Shown: positions 12,916 through 57,392 of the stretch, in pieces
How positions within the stretch are numbered: position 1 is the stretch's first letter
Layout: every line of letters begins with the position of its first letter
Assembly: GCA_021771635.1 (NCBI GenBank)
Contig: JAETOQ010000002.1
Span: forward strand, 1-64,000
Direction of reading: 5' to 3'
Length of the DNA: 64,000 nt
Source: Oscillospiraceae bacterium
Lineage (GTDB): Bacteria; Bacillota; Clostridia; Oscillospirales; Oscillospiraceae
The notes under the pieces: generated by a model
Told to the model about the DNA's origin: nothing
What the model saw: only the letters and a program-made list of their open reading frames with translations
Database searches by the model: none
Made by a program: the position numbers and the translations under genes

Positions 12916-13097
12916 CCTCTCATTCCAAAATGCCGGGCCGTCAAAAAGGCTCCGCCCGCAGAGCGGTTGAATGTTTTCGCTGTTCTAATAAATCTAATAA
13001 AAAAGTTGTAAGATCCGGCGTTAAAAGTGCGGAAGAAAAGAGGGCGTTTTCCATAGAAGGCTTGACAAATTCTCAAAAAGGTCTTATCATGAGAAAC

Positions 13098-13196
13098 TGA
13101 CAATAGGGGAGTCCGAGTGGACGGGCTGAGAGTCGGATATATTCCGAGACCCTTGAAACCTGATCTGGATCATGCCAGCGTAGGGAGCATACTGTT
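13098..13196 (+). promoter_or_regulatory. TPP riboswitch (THI element)
   Basis: GGGGAGTCCG...GGGCTGAGAGTC...GACCCTTGAAACCTGATCTGGATCATGCCAGCGTAGGGAGC. Confidence 0.96.
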
Positions 13197-13230
13197 TTCG
13201 TCAAACAGATGGAGAATGACGATGGAGCGC

Positions 13231-24337: not shown

Positions 24338-24493
24338 TTATGTGTCCAGTTTACAAAAGAGCGCTGCGATATCCGCCGTAATGTCCTCCATGGTGCAGCC
24401 GATGCCCAGTAACTCGTTGGTATACACGCCGCCGTTCATTTCACCCGGCTGGAAGGCTTCCTCCTCCGCCTCCACGGTGCCCAGGGACCGCAT
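24338..24493 (-). other. Diverged second copy of lepA 3' end (possible 51-aa ORF with novel tail)
   Basis: MRSLGTVEAEEEAFQPGEMNGGVYTNELLGIGCTMEDITADIAALFCKLDT preceded by GGGCAAAAAGAAGATGCG, identical to lepA near its 3' end. Confidence 0.65.
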
Positions 24494-24514
24494 CTTCTTT
24501 TTGCCCGCCCCACA

Positions 24515-24656
24515 AAATCCTTGATTTTGCGGGGACCCCGTATTAGATCTGACCGGACAGGCAAAGCCCGCCCGGTCCAAGATTTTTCGCCATAGGCGAA
24601 AAATACTTGTACGCCGCTTCCGCGGCGGCTCGCTGCCGCTGGCAGAGGGCAAAAAG
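24515..24656 (-). repeat. Multi-hairpin 3'-end element (type A) after lepA
   Basis: Three successive hairpins then GGGGTCCCCGC-AAAATCAAGGATTTT-GTGGGG; homologous in order to 40430-40566. Confidence 0.7.
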
Positions 24657-26462
24657 TTATTCGTCCAGCTTGAGCACCGCCAAAAACGCCTCCGTGGGCA
24701 CCTGTACAGTACCGAGAGAACGCATCTTCTTTTTGCCCTCTTTCTGCTTTTCCAGCAGCTTCTTTTTCCGGGTGACGTCGCCGCCGTAGCACTTGGCCAG
24801 CACGTCCTTGCGCATGGCCTTGATGGTCTCCCTGGCGATGATCCGGCCGCCGATGGCCGCCTGGATGGGGATCTCAAAGAGCTGGCGGGGCACATTCTCC
24901 TTCAGCTTTTCGCACAGCCGCCGGGCACGGGGATAGGCCTTGTCCTTGTGGGCAATGAAGCTCAGGGCGTCCACCTTGTCGCCGTTTAAGAGCAGGTCCA
25001 CCTTCACCAGCTCGCTGGGCCGGTAGTCGGACAGCTCATAGTCCAGCGAGGCGTAGCCCTTGGTGTTTGCTTTTAAGGTGTCAAAGAAGTCGTAAATGAT
25101 CTCGTTCAGGGGCATCTGATAGTGCATCTCCACCAGATTCGTGTCCAGATACTGCATGTCCTTGAACTCGCCCCGGCGGTTCTGGCACAGGGGCATGATG
25201 TTGCCCACATACTCGTTGGGGGTGATGATGGAGACCTTGACGTAAGGCTCCTCCGCGTGCTCGATGACAGCCGGGTCCGGGTAGTTGTGGGGGTTGTCCA
25301 CCCGCACCTGTGAGCCATCGGTCTTGTAGACATGGTAGATGACAGAGGGCAGCGTGGTCACCAGGTCCAGGTCGAATTCCCGTTCCAGCCGCTCTTGGAT
25401 GACCTCCATGTGGAGCATTCCCAAAAAACCGCAGCGGAAACCAAAGCCCAGCGCCACGGAGGATTCCGGCTCGAAGCTCAGGGAGGCGTCGTTCAACTGC
25501 AGCTTTTCCAGGGCGTCCCGGAGATCGGGGTACTTGCTGCCGTCCTCGGTATAAATGCCGCAGTAGACCATGGGCTGCACCGGGCGGTAACCCGGCAGGG
25601 CCTCCGCCGTGGGCTCGGCGGCGTCGGTGACCGTATCGCCCACCTGGGTGTCCTTCACGTTTTTGATGGAGGCGGTGAAGTAGCCCACCTCGCCGGCCTC
25701 CAGCTGATCGCAGGGCTCCATACCCAGGGGCAGCAGATGGCCGCACTCCACCACCTGATAAACGGCGCCGGAGGCCATCAGTTTCACCGTCTGACCTGTC
25801 CGGATGGAGCCCTCCATCAGCCGCATATAGACGATGACGCCCCGGTAGCTGTCATACTGGCTGTCGAAAATCAGGGCTTTCAGGGGCGCGTTCACGTCGC
25901 CGGTAGGGGCGGGGACATTTTTCACAATGTCCTCCAGCACGGCGTCGATGTTGATGCCCATCTTGGCGGAGATCTCCGGCGCGTCCATGGCGGGCAGGCC
26001 GATGATGTCCTCCACCTCGTGCTTGGCCTTCTGGGGATCGGCGGCGGGCAGGTCGATCTTGTTGAACACCGGCAGGATCTCCAGATCGTGCTCCATGGCA
26101 AGATAGGTGTTGGCCAGGGTCTGGGCCTCCACGCCCTGGGTGGCGTCCACCACCAGCACCGCGCCCTCGCAGGCCGCCAGGGACCGTGAGACCTCATAGT
26201 TGAAGTCCACATGGCCCGGGGTGTCAATGAGGTTCAGCTCATAGATCTGTCCGTCCTGAGCTTTGTAGTTCAGGCGGACGGCCCGGGCCTTGATGGTGAT
26301 GCCCCGCTCTCTTTCCAAATCCATGTTGTCCAGCAGCTGGCTTTCCATCTGCCGCTGGCTCACCGCCTCGCACTTTTCCAGCAGGCGGTCCGCCAGTGTG
26401 GACTTGCCGTGGTCAATGTGGGCGATGATACTGAAATTTCGAATATTGTTTTGTTTTGTCAT
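24657..26462 (-). CDS. lepA: Elongation factor 4
   Basis: 601 aa; [50 protein letters not shown]-term [26 protein letters not shown]. Confidence 0.97.
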
Positions 26463-26540
26463 GACGATAAAGCCTCCTTGGGCAAGTCCACCGGGGCCCC
26501 ATCGAAGATGGGGCGCGCCGCGTATTGAAATAAAAACAGA

Positions 26541-26644
26541 GGGGGCCCCGCAAAATCAAAGATTTTGTGGGGAGAGAAGGAAGGAACACAGCGGAGCTTT
26601 CGCCGCTAGGCGGAAGCGGAGCGGGCGGAGTATCTTCCGACGAG
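26541..26644 (-). repeat. Multi-hairpin element (type B) inside truncated lepA 5' copy
   Basis: Minus strand TCGTCGGAAGATACTCCGCC...CTTCCGCCTAGCGGCGAAAG...CCCCACAAAATCTTTGATTTTGCGGGGCCCCC. Confidence 0.65.
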
Positions 26645-26733
26645 GTCGATATGGGCAATGATGCTGAAATTCCGAATGTTGCTCTGTTTTGTCATCACGA
26701 TAAAACCTCCTTGGGCAAGTCCGCGCCGCTTCG
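26645..26733 (-). pseudogene. Truncated diverged copy of lepA 5' end (leader, RBS and 17 codons)
   Basis: GGACTTGCCCAAGGAGGTTTTATCGTGATGACAAAACAGAGCAACATTCGGAATTTCAGCATCATTGCCCATATCGAC parallels the start of intact lepA. Confidence 0.8.
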
Positions 26734-40342: not shown

Positions 40343-40359
40343 ATGTCGATCCCTCCGCC

Positions 40360-40429
40360 TTACTGTAATTTCTTCTTCAGCTCATACAGCAGACTCATGG
40401 CCTCGATGGGCGTCAGCGTGTCCGGCTGG
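40360..40429 (-). other. Second, diverged copy of the mutS 3' end
   Basis: Encodes QPDTLTPIEAMSLLYELKKKLQ*; about 60/70 identical to mutS 3' end at 40567-40636; normal spacing to downstream CPBP gene RBS. Confidence 0.85.
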
Positions 40430-40566
40430 CGCACCCCACCGCGCGGGGCGCGGCGGGGACCCCGCATTTGACTCAAATGGCCGGGCAAAGCCCGTCCATT
40501 TCAAGGTTTTGCCTTTGGCAAAACGCTTGGCGCGCCTTCCGGCGCGAACCGCCGCTGCCAGCTTGC
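40430..40566 (-). repeat. Multi-hairpin 3'-end element (type A) after mutS
   Basis: GCGCGCC... GGAA-loop hairpin, GTTTTGCCAAAGGCAAAAC hairpin, AAATGGACGGGCTTTGCCCGGCCATTT hairpin, GCGGGGTCCCCGC palindrome. Confidence 0.75.
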
Positions 40567-43173
40567 TTACTGTAATTTCTGCTTCAGTTCGTATAAAAGC
40601 GTCATGGCCTCAATAGGCGTCAGCGTGTCCGGCTGGCAGCGGCGGATGGCGTCCAGCACCTCGCCCTCCCCGATGGCGCCCAGGGACACCTGGTCCGCCT
40701 CCCGGCGGGGCGCGGTGTAGGAGACGCCGTTCTCCTCCTCCAGCTCTCTGAGGACTGCCTTTGCCCGCTGGACCACCTTGTCCGGCAAGCCCGCCAGCTT
40801 GGCCACTTCAATACCATAGCTGCGGTCCGCGCCGCCGGGGATGATCTTGCGCAGGAAAATGATGTCCTCTCCCCGAGTCTTGACGGCGATGTTGTAGTTC
40901 ACGGTGCCGGGAAGGGTGTTCTCCAGCTCCGTCAGCTCGTGGTAGTGGGTGGCGAAGAGCGTCTTGGCCCCCAGCAGCTTCTTGTCCGCGCAGTACTCCA
41001 GCACCGCCCGGGCGATGGACATGCCGTCAAAGGTGGAAGTGCCCCGGCCGATCTCGTCCAGGATCAGCAGAGAGTTTTTCGTGGCGTGGTGCAGGATGTC
41101 CGACACCTCCGTCATCTCCACCATAAAGGTGGACTGGCCGGCGGAGAGGTCATCGCTGGCGCCGATCCGGGTGAAGATGCGGTCCACCACGCCGATATGG
41201 GCGTGGGCCGCCGGGACAAAGCTGCCCATCTGGGCCATGAGGACGATCAGCGCCACCTGGCGCATGTAAGTCGATTTGCCCGCCATGTTGGGGCCGGTGA
41301 TGATGGCCACCCGGTCCTCTTTTTCGCCCATAAAGGTGTCGTTGGGGACGAAAAGCGTATCTTTGAGCACCTTTTCCACCACCGGGTGGCGGCCCTCGCG
41401 GATCTCGATGACGCCGGACTCGTCCACATCCGGGCGGCAGTAGTGATTGCGCACGGCCACGGCGGCAAAGGACGCCAGCGCGTCCACCTCCGCCACCGCC
41501 GCGGCGGTTTTCTGGATGCGGGGGGCCGTGTCGGAGATCTCCTGGCGCAGCTTCGTGAACAGCTCGTATTCCAGAGCCACCACCCGCTCGGAGGCCGTCA
41601 GGATCTCGTGCTCCAGGTCCTTCAGCTCCTGGGTGATGAACCGTTCGCCGTTCACCAGTGTCTGCTTGCGGATGTATGTATCCGGCACCTGGTCCTTAAA
41701 GGAGTTGCTGACTTCAATGTAATAGCCGAACACCTTGTTGTAGCCGATCTTCAGGGTGCGGATGCCGGTGGCCTCTTTCTCCTTGGCCTCCATCTCCGCG
41801 ATGACGCCCTTGCCGCTTTTCAGGATGTGCCGCAGGCGGTCCACCTCTTCGTCAAAGCCGTCCCGGATGAAGCCGCCCTCCCGGACGGAGAACGGCGGCT
41901 CGTCACAGATGGCGGCGGCGATGCGCTCGCCGATATCGTCCAGAGTGTCCAGCTCCGCCGTCAGCTCGCTCAGGCGGCGGTCGGAAAGGGCGGTCAGCTG
42001 CTCCTTCACAGCGGGCAGCTTTTCGATGGCCGCCCGGAGGGAGGCCATGTCCCGCCCGCCGGCGGTGCCATAGACGATGCGGCCGATAAGCCGCTCCATG
42101 TCCCCCAGGCCCGTCATGGCGGCGATCAGCTCCTCCCGGGCGATGGTGTTGTCCACCAGGGTGCTGACGGCGGAGTTCCTCTTGCAGATGGCGGTGACGC
42201 TGAGCAGGGGCCGCTCCAGCCAGGACCGGAGGCACCGGGCGCCCATGGGCGTTTTGGTCTTGTCCAGCACCCAGAGAAGACTCCCCTTTTTCTCCTTGTT
42301 CCGCAGGGTCTCCGTCAGCTCCAGGTTCCGGCGGGCCGTCAGGTCCAGCTCCATAAACCGGCCCTGCTCGTAGTAGTCCAGGTCGTTGATATGGGAGAGG
42401 TCCGTTTTCTGTGTCTCGTACAGATAATTCAGCAGACCGCCCAGGGCCATGGCCGCCGCCGGATTTCCGGCGGGCAGGCTCTTCAGGGCGTCCTCCCCGA
42501 ACTGCCGGCGGATGTTCTTCTCCGCCTCGTTCAGCAGGAAGCGGCGCTCGCCGCCGTTTTCGGTGCGGCAGTGGAATTTGTCCGTCAGAGCGTTAGTCAG
42601 GGCCTTTTCCGCGTATGCGCCGTCGTTCAGGATGGCCTCCGCCGGGGAGAAGCGGCCCAGCTCATTGATGACGTGCTCCACCCGGTCTTTTCCGGCAAAG
42701 GCCGTCAGGTGGGCCTTGCCGGTGGTAATGTCGCAGAAGGCGGCTCCGGCGGAGCGGGAGTCGATATAAATACCGCAGATGAAGTTGCTGGCCTTGTCAT
42801 CCAGGCAGGCGGCGTCGATGACGGTGCCGGGCGTGACCACCCGGATAATATCCCGCTTGACAAGGCCCTTTGCCGTGGCCGGGTCCTCCATCTGCTCGCA
42901 GATGGCCACCTTGTAGCCCTTGGCGATGAGCCGGGCGATGTAGGCCTCGCTGGCGTGGTAGGGGATGCCGCACATGGGGATCTGCTCCTCCGCCGGCTTG
43001 GCGTGCTTGCCGTGGTCTCGGGAGGTCAATGTCAGGTCCAGTTCCCTGGACGCAAGGCGGGCATCGTCGTCGAACATCTCGTAAAAATCGCCCAGCCGGA
43101 AGAACAGGATGGAATCCGGATTGTCCTTTTTGATCTCCAGGTACTGCTTCATCATGGGGGTCAATTCCGCCAT
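40567..43173 (-). CDS. mutS: DNA mismatch repair protein MutS
   Basis: 868 aa; TPMMKQYLEIKKDNPDSILFFRLGDFYEMF; ITGPNMAGKSTYMRQVALIVLMAQ. Confidence 0.97.
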   Translation of the reverse strand: MAELTPMMKQYLEIKKDNPDSILFFRLGDFYEMFDDDARLASRELDLTLTSRDHGKHAKPAEEQIPMCGIPYHASEAYIARLIAKGYKVAICEQMEDPATAKGLVKRDIIRVVTPGTVIDAACLDDKASNFICGIYIDSRSAGAAFCDITTGKAHLTAFAGKDRVEHVINELGRFSPAEAILNDGAYAEKALTNALTDKFHCRTENGGERRFLLNEAEKNIRRQFGEDALKSLPAGNPAAAMALGGLLNYLYETQKTDLSHINDLDYYEQGRFMELDLTARRNLELTETLRNKEKKGSLLWVLDKTKTPMGARCLRSWLERPLLSVTAICKRNSAVSTLVDNTIAREELIAAMTGLGDMERLIGRIVYGTAGGRDMASLRAAIEKLPAVKEQLTALSDRRLSELTAELDTLDDIGERIAAAICDEPPFSVREGGFIRDGFDEEVDRLRHILKSGKGVIAEMEAKEKEATGIRTLKIGYNKVFGYYIEVSNSFKDQVPDTYIRKQTLVNGERFITQELKDLEHEILTASERVVALEYELFTKLRQEISDTAPRIQKTAAAVAEVDALASFAAVAVRNHYCRPDVDESGVIEIREGRHPVVEKVLKDTLFVPNDTFMGEKEDRVAIITGPNMAGKSTYMRQVALIVLMAQMGSFVPAAHAHIGVVDRIFTRIGASDDLSAGQSTFMVEMTEVSDILHHATKNSLLILDEIGRGTSTFDGMSIARAVLEYCADKKLLGAKTLFATHYHELTELENTLPGTVNYNIAVKTRGEDIIFLRKIIPGGADRSYGIEVAKLAGLPDKVVQRAKAVLRELEEENGVSYTAPRREADQVSLGAIGEGEVLDAIRRCQPDTLTPIEAMTLLYELKQKLQ

Positions 43174-43276: not shown

Positions 43277-43843
43277 GGGAATGAACCCCCATTTTCTTTT
43301 CGTCTTGCCGAAAAGAAAACGGCCGTTCACGGTCAAAAGAAAAGGCGCTTGGAGCAAAACCGGCGCTAAAAGCGCCTTATTTGCTTAAAACGCAGAGTCC
43401 CAGAAAGGAACTGCGCAGAAAACTTCCGGCCGAAGCGTTGGGCGCGGTCCCGGTCTTGCGAAGTCTTTTGGCCTTCAGCCCCGCGAATTGGAATTGCAAG
43501 GACGGGCAAAAATCGCAAGGACCAGCGTCTCTTTTCGCTGCCGCTCCCGCTACCTTCCGGTAGCGCGTAGCGAAGCGGAACGCGCGGGGCTAATGGTCAA
43601 GTCCTTCCGTTGACCGCCTCGGTCTTGCACTCACGCCCGCAAATGCGGGGGCGCAGTTCTAAGATCGTACCCTGTCCAGCGCACCCGGTACAAGCCCGCA
43701 AGTTTCCGCCGCACCGACTCGCTCGACCCCCGTATTTTAAGCAAAAAAGGCGCAACGCGCCGTTTTGCGCCTTAGCGGTTTTCTTTTGACCGGGCGCGGC
43801 CATTTTCTTTTGTCAAGACAAAAGAAAATGGGGGCGCATTCCC
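43277..43843. mobile_element. MITE-like element with ~110-bp imperfect terminal inverted repeats, no ORF
   Basis: Left arm 43277-43388 (gggaatgaacccccattttcttttcgtcttgcc...ttgcttaa) is inverted at 43737-43843 (ttaagcaaaaaaggcgc...gggggcgcattccc). Confidence 0.75.
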
Positions 43844-48110: not shown

Positions 48111-48160
48111 GCGCGTTTTTTCAGATTCTCAGAATTCGGGCAATGTTGCTCTGCTGGGGC

Positions 48161-48268
48161 CCCCGCGCGAACCCAGCGAAGCGGATCGCGTGGGGAAGCG
48201 GCAGAGCAAGGGAGCGGAATGAGGAATACCCATCAGGGTGTTCCGAGTGAAGCGGACTTTGCGATGAC
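48161..48268 (-). repeat. Multi-hairpin element (type B) overlapping ileS 3' end
   Basis: Minus strand TCGCAAAGTCCGCT, CGCTCCCTTGCTC and CCGCTTCGCTGGG blocks shared exactly with 57088-57194. Confidence 0.8.
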
Positions 48269-50995
48269 GCTGGCGCAGCGGGGGCACAGGTCGTCCTTGC
48301 CGGACTGGGTGCTGTGCTTCCAGCAGCGGGGGCACTTGGCGCCGGCGGCGTTCTCCACGGAGACGGAGAGCTCGCCGCCCACCGTCAGCTCCACCTGGGA
48401 GACGATCAGAATGTCCGCCAGGGCATCGGCGTCCATCTCCGACAGGAAAGCATCCTCCGCGGGGACGGTCAGCCGGACCTTGGCCTCCAGGGCTTTGCCG
48501 ATCTTCTTCTCGGCACGGGCGGCCTCCAGCACGCCGTTGACAGTATCCCGCACAGCGATGATCCGGTCCCATTTTGCCATGGCGGCATCATCCAGGGCAT
48601 AGCTGGCAAAGGGCTTGTTCATCTCGTTGAACACCACGTTCCGGGCGTCGTCGCGGTCGCGGTGGGGCATGGCCAGCCAGATCTCGTCGCAGGTGAAGCA
48701 CAGGATGGGGGCCATGATCTTGGTCATGGTGTCCAGGATCAGGAACAGGGCGGTCTGGGCGCTGCGGCGCTTGGCGCCGTCCTTCTCCTCGCAGTACAGG
48801 CGGTCCTTGATGATGTCTAGATAGAAGTTGGACAGCTCCACCACGCAGAAGTCGTTGACCGCGTGGGTGACAGCGTTGAACTCATAGTCATTGTACGCCT
48901 GCTCGCACTTTTCGATGAGGGCGTTCAGGCGGGTGACGGCCCAGAGGTCCAGCTCCTCCATCTGGTCGGCGGGCACCAGATGGTCGGCGTCGAAGCCGTC
49001 CAGGTTGCCCAGGCAGTACCGGGCGGTGTTGCGGAACTTCAGGTAGTTCTGGGAGAGCTGCTTGAAGATGGCGTCGGAGCAGCGCATGTCGGCGTGGTAG
49101 TCGGCGCTGGCGGCCCACAGGCGCAGCAGGTCCGCACCGTACTTGTTGAAGACCTCGTAGGGGTCCACGCCGTTGCCCAAGGACTTGTGCATGGCCTTGC
49201 CCTCGCCGTCCACGGTCCAGCCGTGGGTGATGCACTCCTTGAAGGGGGCGCCGTTGCCGAAGGCGCCCACGGCGGTCAGCAGAGAGGACTGGAACCAGCC
49301 GCGATACTGGTCCAGGCCCTCCATATACACGGTGGCGGGCCAGAAGCCCTGATCCCGCTTCATGGAGGCGAAGTGGGTGGAGCCGGAGTCGAACCAGCCG
49401 TCCAGGGTGTCCTCCTCCTTGGTAAAGCCGTGGCTCGCGCCGCAGTGGGGGCAGGTAAAGCCGGCGGGCAGGATCTCCTCCGCCTCCTTGGCGAACCAGG
49501 CGTTGGAACCCTCCGCCTCAAACAGGGCGGAGATGGCGGAGATGGTCTCATCGGTGACGACGGGCTTGCCGCAGTCCTTGCAGTACACCACGGGGATGGG
49601 CAGGCCCCAGCGGCGCTGGCGGCTGATGCACCAGTCGGTGCGCTCCCGGATCATGGACTTCATGCGGTCGATGCCCCAGCCGGGCACCCAGCGCACGTCG
49701 TCACAGGCGGCGCAGGCCTCGTCCTTAAAAGCGTCCACGGAGCAGAACCACTGGGGAGTGGCCCGGAAGATGATGGGATTCTTGCAGCGCCAGCAGTGGG
49801 GATAGCTGTGGACGATGTCCTCGGAGGCGAACAGGGCGCCGCTCTCCTTCATGTCCGCCAGGATGACGGGGTTACTCTCATCGGTCTTCATGCCGGCGTA
49901 CTTGCCGGCGTAATCGGTGTGGCGGCCCTGGTCATCCACGGGCACCACCATGTCCATGCCGTAGCGCTTGCAGGTCTGGTAGTCGTCCGCGCCGAAGCCG
50001 GGGGCGGTGTGGACGCAGCCAGTACCGGAGTCCATGGTGACGTAGTCCGCCAGCACCAGACGGGAGGTCTTGGGCAGGAAGGGATGGTCCGCCAGCATGT
50101 TCTCGAAGAAGGAGCCGGGATGGGTCTCCACGATCTCATAGCTCTCAAAGCCGCCGATGCCCATGACCTTCTCCGTCAGGGCCTCCGCCATGATATAGAC
50201 CTCGCCGTTGGGGGCCTTTACCAGAGCGTAGGACTCGTCGGGATGCAGGGCGATAGCCAGGTTGCCGGGCAGAGTCCAGATGGTGGTGGTCCAGATCACG
50301 AAGAAGAGCTTGCTGTGGTCAAATGCCGCCAGCTTGCCCTGGTCATCGTGCATGGGGAACTTCACATAGACAGTGGTGCAGGGGTCATCCTGGTACTCGA
50401 TCTCGGCCTCGGCCAGGGCGGTCTCGTCGTGAGGGCACCAGTACACGGGCTTGAGGCCCTTGTAGATATAGCCCTTCTTGTACATCTCGCCGAACACCTT
50501 GACCTCCTCGGCCTCAAAGCCGGGGTTCATGGTCAGGTAGGGGTGCTCCCAGTCGCCGATGACGCCCATCCGCTGGAAGCCCTCGCTCTGGACATCCACA
50601 TAGTGCTGGGCGAACTCATGGCAGGCGGAGCGGAAATCGGGCACGCTCATCTCCTTGCGGTTGAGCTTGTTCTGCTTGATGATGGCGGACTCGATGGGCA
50701 TGCCGTGGTTGTCCCAGCCGGGGATATAGGGGGTGTAGTAGCCCCGCATGGCATAGGACCGGGTGATGAAGTCCTTGATGGACTTGTTCAGGGCGTGGCC
50801 CATGTGCAGCGCGCCGTTGGAGAACGGAGGGCCGTCGTGGAGATTGAACAGGGGCTTGCCCTCGTTCTTCTTCAGCAGCTCGTGGTAGACGTCGATCTTC
50901 TTCCACCGCTCCAGCATCTCCGGCTCCCGCTTGGGCAGGCCCGCCCGCATGGGGAAGTCGGTCTTCGGCAGATTGATGGTTTTGTTGTAGTCCAT
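48233..50995 (-). CDS. ileS: Isoleucyl-tRNA synthetase
   Basis: 920 aa; DGPPFSNGALHMGHALNKSIKDF; MHKSLGNGVDPYEV (KMSKS-type); C-terminal zinc ribbon. Confidence 0.97.
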   Translation of the reverse strand: MDYNKTINLPKTDFPMRAGLPKREPEMLERWKKIDVYHELLKKNEGKPLFNLHDGPPFSNGALHMGHALNKSIKDFITRSYAMRGYYTPYIPGWDNHGMPIESAIIKQNKLNRKEMSVPDFRSACHEFAQHYVDVQSEGFQRMGVIGDWEHPYLTMNPGFEAEEVKVFGEMYKKGYIYKGLKPVYWCPHDETALAEAEIEYQDDPCTTVYVKFPMHDDQGKLAAFDHSKLFFVIWTTTIWTLPGNLAIALHPDESYALVKAPNGEVYIMAEALTEKVMGIGGFESYEIVETHPGSFFENMLADHPFLPKTSRLVLADYVTMDSGTGCVHTAPGFGADDYQTCKRYGMDMVVPVDDQGRHTDYAGKYAGMKTDESNPVILADMKESGALFASEDIVHSYPHCWRCKNPIIFRATPQWFCSVDAFKDEACAACDDVRWVPGWGIDRMKSMIRERTDWCISRQRRWGLPIPVVYCKDCGKPVVTDETISAISALFEAEGSNAWFAKEAEEILPAGFTCPHCGASHGFTKEEDTLDGWFDSGSTHFASMKRDQGFWPATVYMEGLDQYRGWFQSSLLTAVGAFGNGAPFKECITHGWTVDGEGKAMHKSLGNGVDPYEVFNKYGADLLRLWAASADYHADMRCSDAIFKQLSQNYLKFRNTARYCLGNLDGFDADHLVPADQMEELDLWAVTRLNALIEKCEQAYNDYEFNAVTHAVNDFCVVELSNFYLDIIKDRLYCEEKDGAKRRSAQTALFLILDTMTKIMAPILCFTCDEIWLAMPHRDRDDARNVVFNEMNKPFASYALDDAAMAKWDRIIAVRDTVNGVLEAARAEKKIGKALEAKVRLTVPAEDAFLSEMDADALADILIVSQVELTVGGELSVSVENAAGAKCPRCWKHSTQSGKDDLCPRCASVIAKSASLGTP

Positions 50996-57087: not shown

Positions 57088-57194
57088 GTCGTCGCAAAGT
57101 CCGCTAAGCTCCATTTCCCGCTTTGCGGAAAACTTCGCACGCTCCCTTGCTCCTCCTCTTCCCACCGAACCCGCTTCGCTGGGCTTCGGCGGGA
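57088..57194 (+). repeat. Multi-hairpin element (type B) immediately after rpsO stop codon
   Basis: GTCGTCGCAAAGTCCGCT...CGCTCCCTTGCTC...CCGCTTCGCTGGG; matches minus strand of 48161-48268. Confidence 0.8.
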
Positions 57195-57246: not shown

Positions 57247-57392
57247 AAAAATTAAAATTAAAAACTAAAATCAAAATCATTCCGCCGGGAGCCGCTGTCT
57301 TTTTGTGTTTGAAACTGTGCCCGAAATCTTCGGACATGCTTTCAAATACGAAAAGAGCCGCTCCCGAGTATCAAACGTAAAGGAGCAACAAC

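Follow-up and report, generated by a model that had tools for sequence, protein, structure and literature searches.

The only close relative that we found in the literature for the elements described here is the CGTC-tagged superfamily of repetitive extragenic palindromic (REP) sequences, which includes dRS3 of Neisseria and RPE-4 and RPE-6 of Rickettsia and has no known dedicated transposase. In the survey passages used here (PMC3733652), CGTC-REPs are single hairpins with stems of 8–9 bp that occur mostly in alphaproteobacteria, and none is reported from Firmicutes. Our elements come from an Oscillospiraceae bacterium (GenBank assembly GCA_021771635.1), of which positions 1 to 64,000 of contig JAETOQ010000002.1 are referred to as the window. 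They form two families: B, with a copy directly after the rpsO stop codon at 57088–57194 (+), and A, which adjoins lepA and mutS. At many loci the element interrupts a gene end at a precise point, a second, intact gene end is present on its other side, and a short antisense copy of the insertion site lies next to the element. Like the CGTC-REPs of those passages, B is a small palindromic repeat with an unpaired CGTC at one end, present in many copies and often downstream of genes. However, the former are single short hairpins (20–40 bp), whereas B comprises about 105 nt with three helices and A about 115 nt with four. Neither duplication of a gene end nor an antisense target copy is mentioned for CGTC-REPs in the same passages, and no known mobile element matched this signature. 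We place A and B among the small mobile repeats that are non-autonomous; the CGTC tag is shared with the surveyed REPs, but size, fold and host group are not.

Other systems resemble A and B in part. Miniature inverted-repeat transposable elements (MITEs) are likewise short, non-coding, non-autonomous, multi-copy and near genes. MITEs carry terminal inverted repeats and short target duplications, whereas in our case the two ends are dissimilar, plain insertions have no target duplication and the gene-end copies are about 25–90 bp long. Tyrosine-integrase elements at the 3' ends of genes and tRNAs also restore the gene end and leave a remnant on the far side, and one of our copies lies at a tRNA-Leu gene; here, however, there is no integrase, the inserted segment is about 100–200 bp, the target genes are many and an inverted site copy stands beside the element. 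Group II introns, IS110 with its bridge RNA and IS200/IS605 with their guide RNAs share with A and B a structured RNA adjacent to a short complement of the insertion site. Unlike these RNA-guided elements, A and B have no Rfam match and no linked enzyme, their antisense segment is contiguous and centred on the insertion point, and the intact gene keeps the site.

The layout is fixed at many loci: a cut-off gene end (D), the element, the antisense site copy, an intact gene end (D') and the gene itself. In dozens of cases D halts exactly at the edge of the element, which defines the insertion point, J. D' mostly starts no more than a few nt from the stop codon or, in 5' insertions (truB, fabK), at the start codon, and the gene remains whole because its end is duplicated as D'. 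The outer end of the element (...CGACGACG for B, a hairpin ...GTGGGG for A) abuts the gene end at J, and CC precedes J in 23 of 46 loci. Among host copies with usable flanks, the duplication layout is seen in 11 of 14 for A and in about 10 of 39 for B; something similar occurs at 17 of 1000 random points. Ten target genes are named by NCBIfam (lepA, mutS, ileS, uvrB, prfB, glmS, fabK, truB, tpiA and hypoxanthine phosphoribosyltransferase). The first three lie in the window, ileS being a plain insertion. Peptide reading adds leuS, eno, alaS, pgk and rsfS. Placement is not confined to 3' ends: elements also occupy 5' ends, tRNA genes and intergenic positions, and one A copy has a copy of tRNA-Leu(CAG) on either side. 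Insertions at 5' ends have the element in antisense to the gene and show an unchanged D/D' pattern (L203, L311, lepA).

The antisense copy is a 12–14 bp inverted copy of the target, placed between the element and D', and was found in 23 of 46 loci, as compared to 2.6% in a swapped-pair control. Its match profile is centred on J (about −7 to +6) and drops off beyond. Each of A and B has its own copy, and the intact gene retains a site matching it. Where mutS has two insertion points 13 nt apart, each has an antisense copy of its own. Across species, the copy at mutS covaries with the local target (GATGGC/GCCATC in genome G023, GAGGGC/GCCCTC in G018), and the lepA copy likewise varies with its target. 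A recurrent mismatch was seen two bases before J, where the copy often has A and the target C (L066, L068, L084, L292). These statistics are consistent with an insertion site that would be chosen by pairing with the adjacent antisense copy. The copies may have a guide-like function, or they may arise as short inverted repeats correct each other.

Specific examples are provided by mutS and lepA. The intact mutS gene (40567–43173, −; NCBIfam PRK05399, TIGR01070) is followed downstream by an A element (40431–40546, +; E=2.4e-21) and, beyond it, by a cut-off mutS 3' end (D, 40359–40430, −) that is 86% identical to the intact end at 40566–40637. The antisense copy CCGCCGCTGCCAGC (40549–40562) is the inverted form of the mutS target GCTGGCAGCGGCGG (40632–40645), which spans J at 40637/40638. 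Intact lepA (24657–26462, −; NCBIfam TIGR01393, E=5.7e-300) lies between B on its 5' side and A on its 3' side. Downstream is an A element (24505–24627, +; E=1.8e-18) with the hairpin CCCCACAAAATC..GATTTTGCGGGGACCCC at its outer end; next to the lepA stop codon, the antisense copy GAGGGCAAAAAG (24645–24656) inverts the lepA target CTTTTTGCCCTC (24729–24740). The old 3' end remnant (D) occupies 24338–24507 (−), and its part 24469–24506 is 82% identical to lepA 24701–24738. This remnant is homologous to lepA over about 11 codons only and continues in frame into a different tail (..GTVEAEEEAFQPGEMNGGVYTNELLGIGCTMEDITADIAALFCKLDT, then a stop) that is unlike the lepA ends of congeners. At the other end of the gene, a B-variant element (26541–26646, −) separates the intact 5' end from a 5' remnant (D, 26641–26722) that has the start codon and about 54 coding nt. 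The latter is 87% identical to the intact 26408–26489, and 7 of its 8 changed codons are synonymous by reading. The antisense copy GGCAAGTCCAC (26481–26491) inverts the lepA coding target GTGGACTTGCC (26398–26408), which is next to J. The uvrB gene (contig C1:35588-37871) is likewise flanked by one A and one B, and remnants of both its ends lie beyond the elements.

Plain insertions exist as well. The rpsO copy begins at the stop codon (AAGTGA/GTCGTCG, where the slash marks the junction) with no duplicated gene end; it is present at the same position in congeners G005, G008 and G018, and the site is empty in G013 and G007. In ileS, the element (48158–48270, −) was inserted a few codons short of the native end, and the present end of the gene falls within the element. 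G013 has an empty site with the uninterrupted end CPRCAAVVAKLPQL followed by the stop codon, and comparison with the empty site reveals no target duplication. In G007 the element supplies the new last codons of ileS, and the native tail AKLPEF-stop resumes past it. B is therefore able to insert without duplicating anything. The duplication seen in other genes may be linked to insertion into a gene that the cell needs, or be selected along with it.

The copies at rpsO, ileS and the lepA remnant belong to a single repeat family of about 105 bp. Its consensus, on the strand used by the first-pass annotation of this DNA, is N-CGTCGTCGCAAAGTCCGCT-(hairpin 1)-CGCTCCCTTGCTC-CTCCTCTCCCCAC-(terminal hairpin)-GCGGGG(N)CCCC. 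The two ends of B are unlike each other, and the unpaired CGTC tag CGTCGTCG at the outer end is invariant or nearly so. All genome-wide counts are from model searches. The covariance model for B (R1) was built on 41 related copies and the rpsO and ileS copies; it recovers these two with E=6e-28 and E=2e-25, respectively, both being among the building sequences, and the lepA 5' copy, which was left out of model building, with E=2e-6. The three copies with the block order first described are all present. In the 2.8-Mb host genome, covariance searches give 48 matches for B (R1) and 18 places for A, a family that is also present many times over in congeners. An exact B core pattern occurs at at least 119 loci elsewhere, nearly all of them in Oscillospirales. 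A few copies are on viral contigs, in two phage records and on one Subdoligranulum plasmid. Our evidence for mobility consists of these few copies and of two sites that B fills, ileS (empty in G013) and rpsO (empty in both G013 and G007). A variant of B beginning with CGTCGGAAGAAATTCCGC, in which GCTCCATTCCTTCCTC replaces CGCTCCCTTGCTC, is itself multi-copy (L228, L262, L268 and window 26541–26646). At one tpiA site in Flavonifractor sp. An10 (L150), two consecutive B elements are identical save for the base preceding CGTCG (T instead of the native A), which suggests repeated insertion at one J; an older degenerate B is located further out.

Both families are structured, and B folds into covarying hairpins. 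In A, 97.6% of cells pair in the standard way in four helices; both-sided changes affect 15 of 36 pairs, and there are 79 double-changed cells as compared to 21 in shuffles. B has three helices with double changes in 12 of 19 pairs. On the printed strand, A.C mismatches, which are G.U on the other strand, outnumber G.T in B (83 versus 19) and in A (23 versus 8). Therefore, if the elements act as RNA, the working strand would read from the gene side to the outer end, toward CGACGACG in B. Rfam covariance searches, intron families included, gave no relevant match in the window (gathering threshold) or, with a cut-off of E≤5, in five loci with A and B copies. A and B look like two structured RNA families absent from Rfam. 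The elements (105–150 bp) contain no gene and hence no integrase of their own.

It had been proposed by the first-pass annotation that B sits exactly at gene 3' ends (rpsO, ileS) and in the lepA remnant, and that A and B may be the two ends of one system, perhaps pairing around replaced genes. The rpsO copy does lie at the stop codon, but the ileS copy precedes the native end by a few codons, and a link of copies to stop codons does not extend to the genome, where most B copies are more than 60 nt from any gene 3' end. This tally rests on rough open reading frame (ORF) calling and is weak because GC-rich DNA yields spurious ORFs. The terminal hairpins of A and B are of the same kind, and the claim that one is the inverse of the other is borne out at lepA, where the pair forms an 84% inverted repeat 2.0 kb apart. 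Both families also share the insertion anatomy with cut-off gene ends at the junctions. At lepA and uvrB, the A-to-B distance is 2.1–2.3 kb with the same relative orientation of the elements, and the genome-wide search adds uvrB to lepA as a gene framed by both. This double flanking is a real hint at the two-ends idea. However, 18 A stand against 48 B, most copies are single, and no A-hairpin-B composite turned up; for most copies we reject the view that A and B must form the left and right ends of a single element. The idea of replaced genes was not supported: rpsO and ileS are plain insertions and lepA ranks relatives much as pnp does (G013, G007, G064 and G044 are among the nearest for both), which leaves a distant replacement of lepA unsupported.

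We lean, with less than even confidence, towards A and B being non-autonomous mobile elements of Oscillospirales that act as structured RNAs or RNA-like templates, the antisense copy being guide-like. The working orientation would be a 5' target copy (t), the element and a 3' outer end. At the gene-side end of the element RNA, or its DNA equivalent, t would pair across J and could serve as a guide or splint that sets the break there. The outer end of the element would then be joined to the broken strand at D, and an enzyme acting in trans, perhaps a reverse transcriptase that takes the broken strand as its primer, would install the element. If copying ran on through the antisense copy into the gene end, the gene would be restored, and in needed genes the survivors would be only those events with a rebuilt end. 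Homologous recombination or homing could then carry element-bearing ends from one strain or species to another and would refresh D and D' as different functional alleles. The codon changes between D and D' bear on this last step: across gene-end pairs, 114 are synonymous and 22 non-synonymous. As a dead copy would show the opposite, D and D' were both working gene ends in the recent past, in keeping with a transfer of such ends, element included, between alleles or species. A simple duplication of the target site with later decay is rejected as the sole explanation, given the mostly synonymous changes and the plain insertions without duplication. At mutS, about 4 positions distinguish the element of G000 from that of G013, while the surrounding gene is about 85–88% identical.

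Several observations weigh against a guided insertion of this kind. At half of the loci, among them leuS, the pnp leader and tRNA-Leu, the antisense copy has diverged or is missing, and many B copies are plain insertions that lack both D' and an antisense copy. The covariation of copy and target could come from correction of quasi-palindromes during replication and not from guide function. In some genomes D equals or nearly equals D' (lepA in G044, mutS in G004), though the insertions look old, and lepA forms arrays of two elements and three gene ends in G064 and G024, with identical repeated units in G064; therefore gene conversion or array expansion also acts. Finally, the searches turned up no partner enzyme. 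The distribution of RVT_1, TnpB, Y1 and IS110 transposase genes does not follow that of the elements, although many of the genomes are incomplete. RVT_1 is present in G000, G006, G007, G008 and G013 and absent from the element-carrying G015, G018 and G024. No B was found beside the reverse transcriptase genes examined. Y1, the transposase type expected of a REP/RAYT system, has just a broken match in G000 and none in G008, which is rich in B and A. No consistent correlation emerged for reverse transcriptase, TnpB, Y1 or IS110 transposases as the partner.

The main rival is REP- or MITE-like behaviour with later rearrangement, that is, plain insertion of ordinary palindromic repeats, duplication of the gene end by slippage or unequal exchange and origin or perfection of the antisense copy by template switching at a quasi-palindrome during replication. 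The plain B insertions at ileS and rpsO, the identical array units of lepA in G064 and the unpaired CGTC tag at the start of B, as in the CGTC-REPs of the survey passages (PMC3733652), all speak for it. We nevertheless regard it as doubtful, as A copies nearly always come with a duplication, unrelated genes agree in having J as the limit of D and the stop codon as that of D', a decaying dead copy should show mostly non-synonymous changes where 114 synonymous and 22 non-synonymous codons were seen, and 23 of 46 loci have an antisense copy with J at its centre. If the elements were instead scars of gene replacement, import junctions at which an incoming gene with A or B at its ends was joined to a resident remnant, the element plus remnant at both ends of lepA and uvrB would be accounted for, and the mostly synonymous D/D' differences would mean that different functional alleles met. 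This is unlikely: the ranking of lepA relatives indicates no distant origin, D is identical to D' in several genomes, most sites have a single junction and plain insertions exist.

In group I introns, the internal guide sequence forms one contiguous stretch across the junction, and in group IIA introns EBS1 plus delta does so. This layout, and a D that is codon-intact and in frame with the gene, would suit a reading of A and B as degenerate intron-like ribozymes with a leftover internal guide for both exons, where removal of D', antisense copy and element would join the gene to D. We consider such an origin very unlikely, because Rfam gives no match to intron families, elements of 105–120 nt are far below catalytic intron size, and elements at 5' ends are antisense to the gene and yet show the same D/D' pattern (L203, L311, lepA). 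For this last reason, splicing was set aside as the cause of the intact D. Stable hairpins right after stop codons, and the rpsO copy common to G005, G008 and G018, would also suit non-mobile elements of the 3' untranslated region, i.e. terminators or stabilisers under selection at particular genes. The empty sites of sister species already disfavour this, and insertions within coding sequence, at 5' ends and in a tRNA gene, as well as the multi-copy spread, make it highly improbable.

Some neighbouring features of the window should be mentioned. Upstream of pnp (57280–57380) there is a conserved long hairpin leader (CGGGAGC..TTTTTGTGTTTGAAACTGTG..CAAATACGAAAA..GCTCCCG) common to several congeners; in G065 an A element is inserted in tandem in this leader, which is duplicated (L354). 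Upstream of mutS (43277–43843) lies another long inverted-repeat element with AAAAGAAAATGGGGG arms, and related repeats of Oscillibacter hold B insertions without duplication (L048, L069, L153, L156). A thiamine pyrophosphate (TPP) riboswitch is located at 13095–13204 (+; Rfam, 65 bits).

Returning to the preferred reading of A and B as mobile structured RNAs, its strongest form would be a new class: structured RNAs of about 100 nt with a self-renewing guide of 12–14 nt, homing into the ends of conserved housekeeping genes, rebuilding these ends upon insertion and sometimes framing and moving a whole essential gene (lepA, uvrB). We put this forward as a speculative proposal that may well fail. 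Even if no guide is involved, the elements are widespread and give rise to mis-annotated gene ends and to partial duplicates of core genes. If the guide reading is true, gut Oscillospiraceae would hold a compact programmable insertion system that spares essential genes, and this would bear on how REP-like repeats move, on core-gene exchange between species and on DNA-writing tools.
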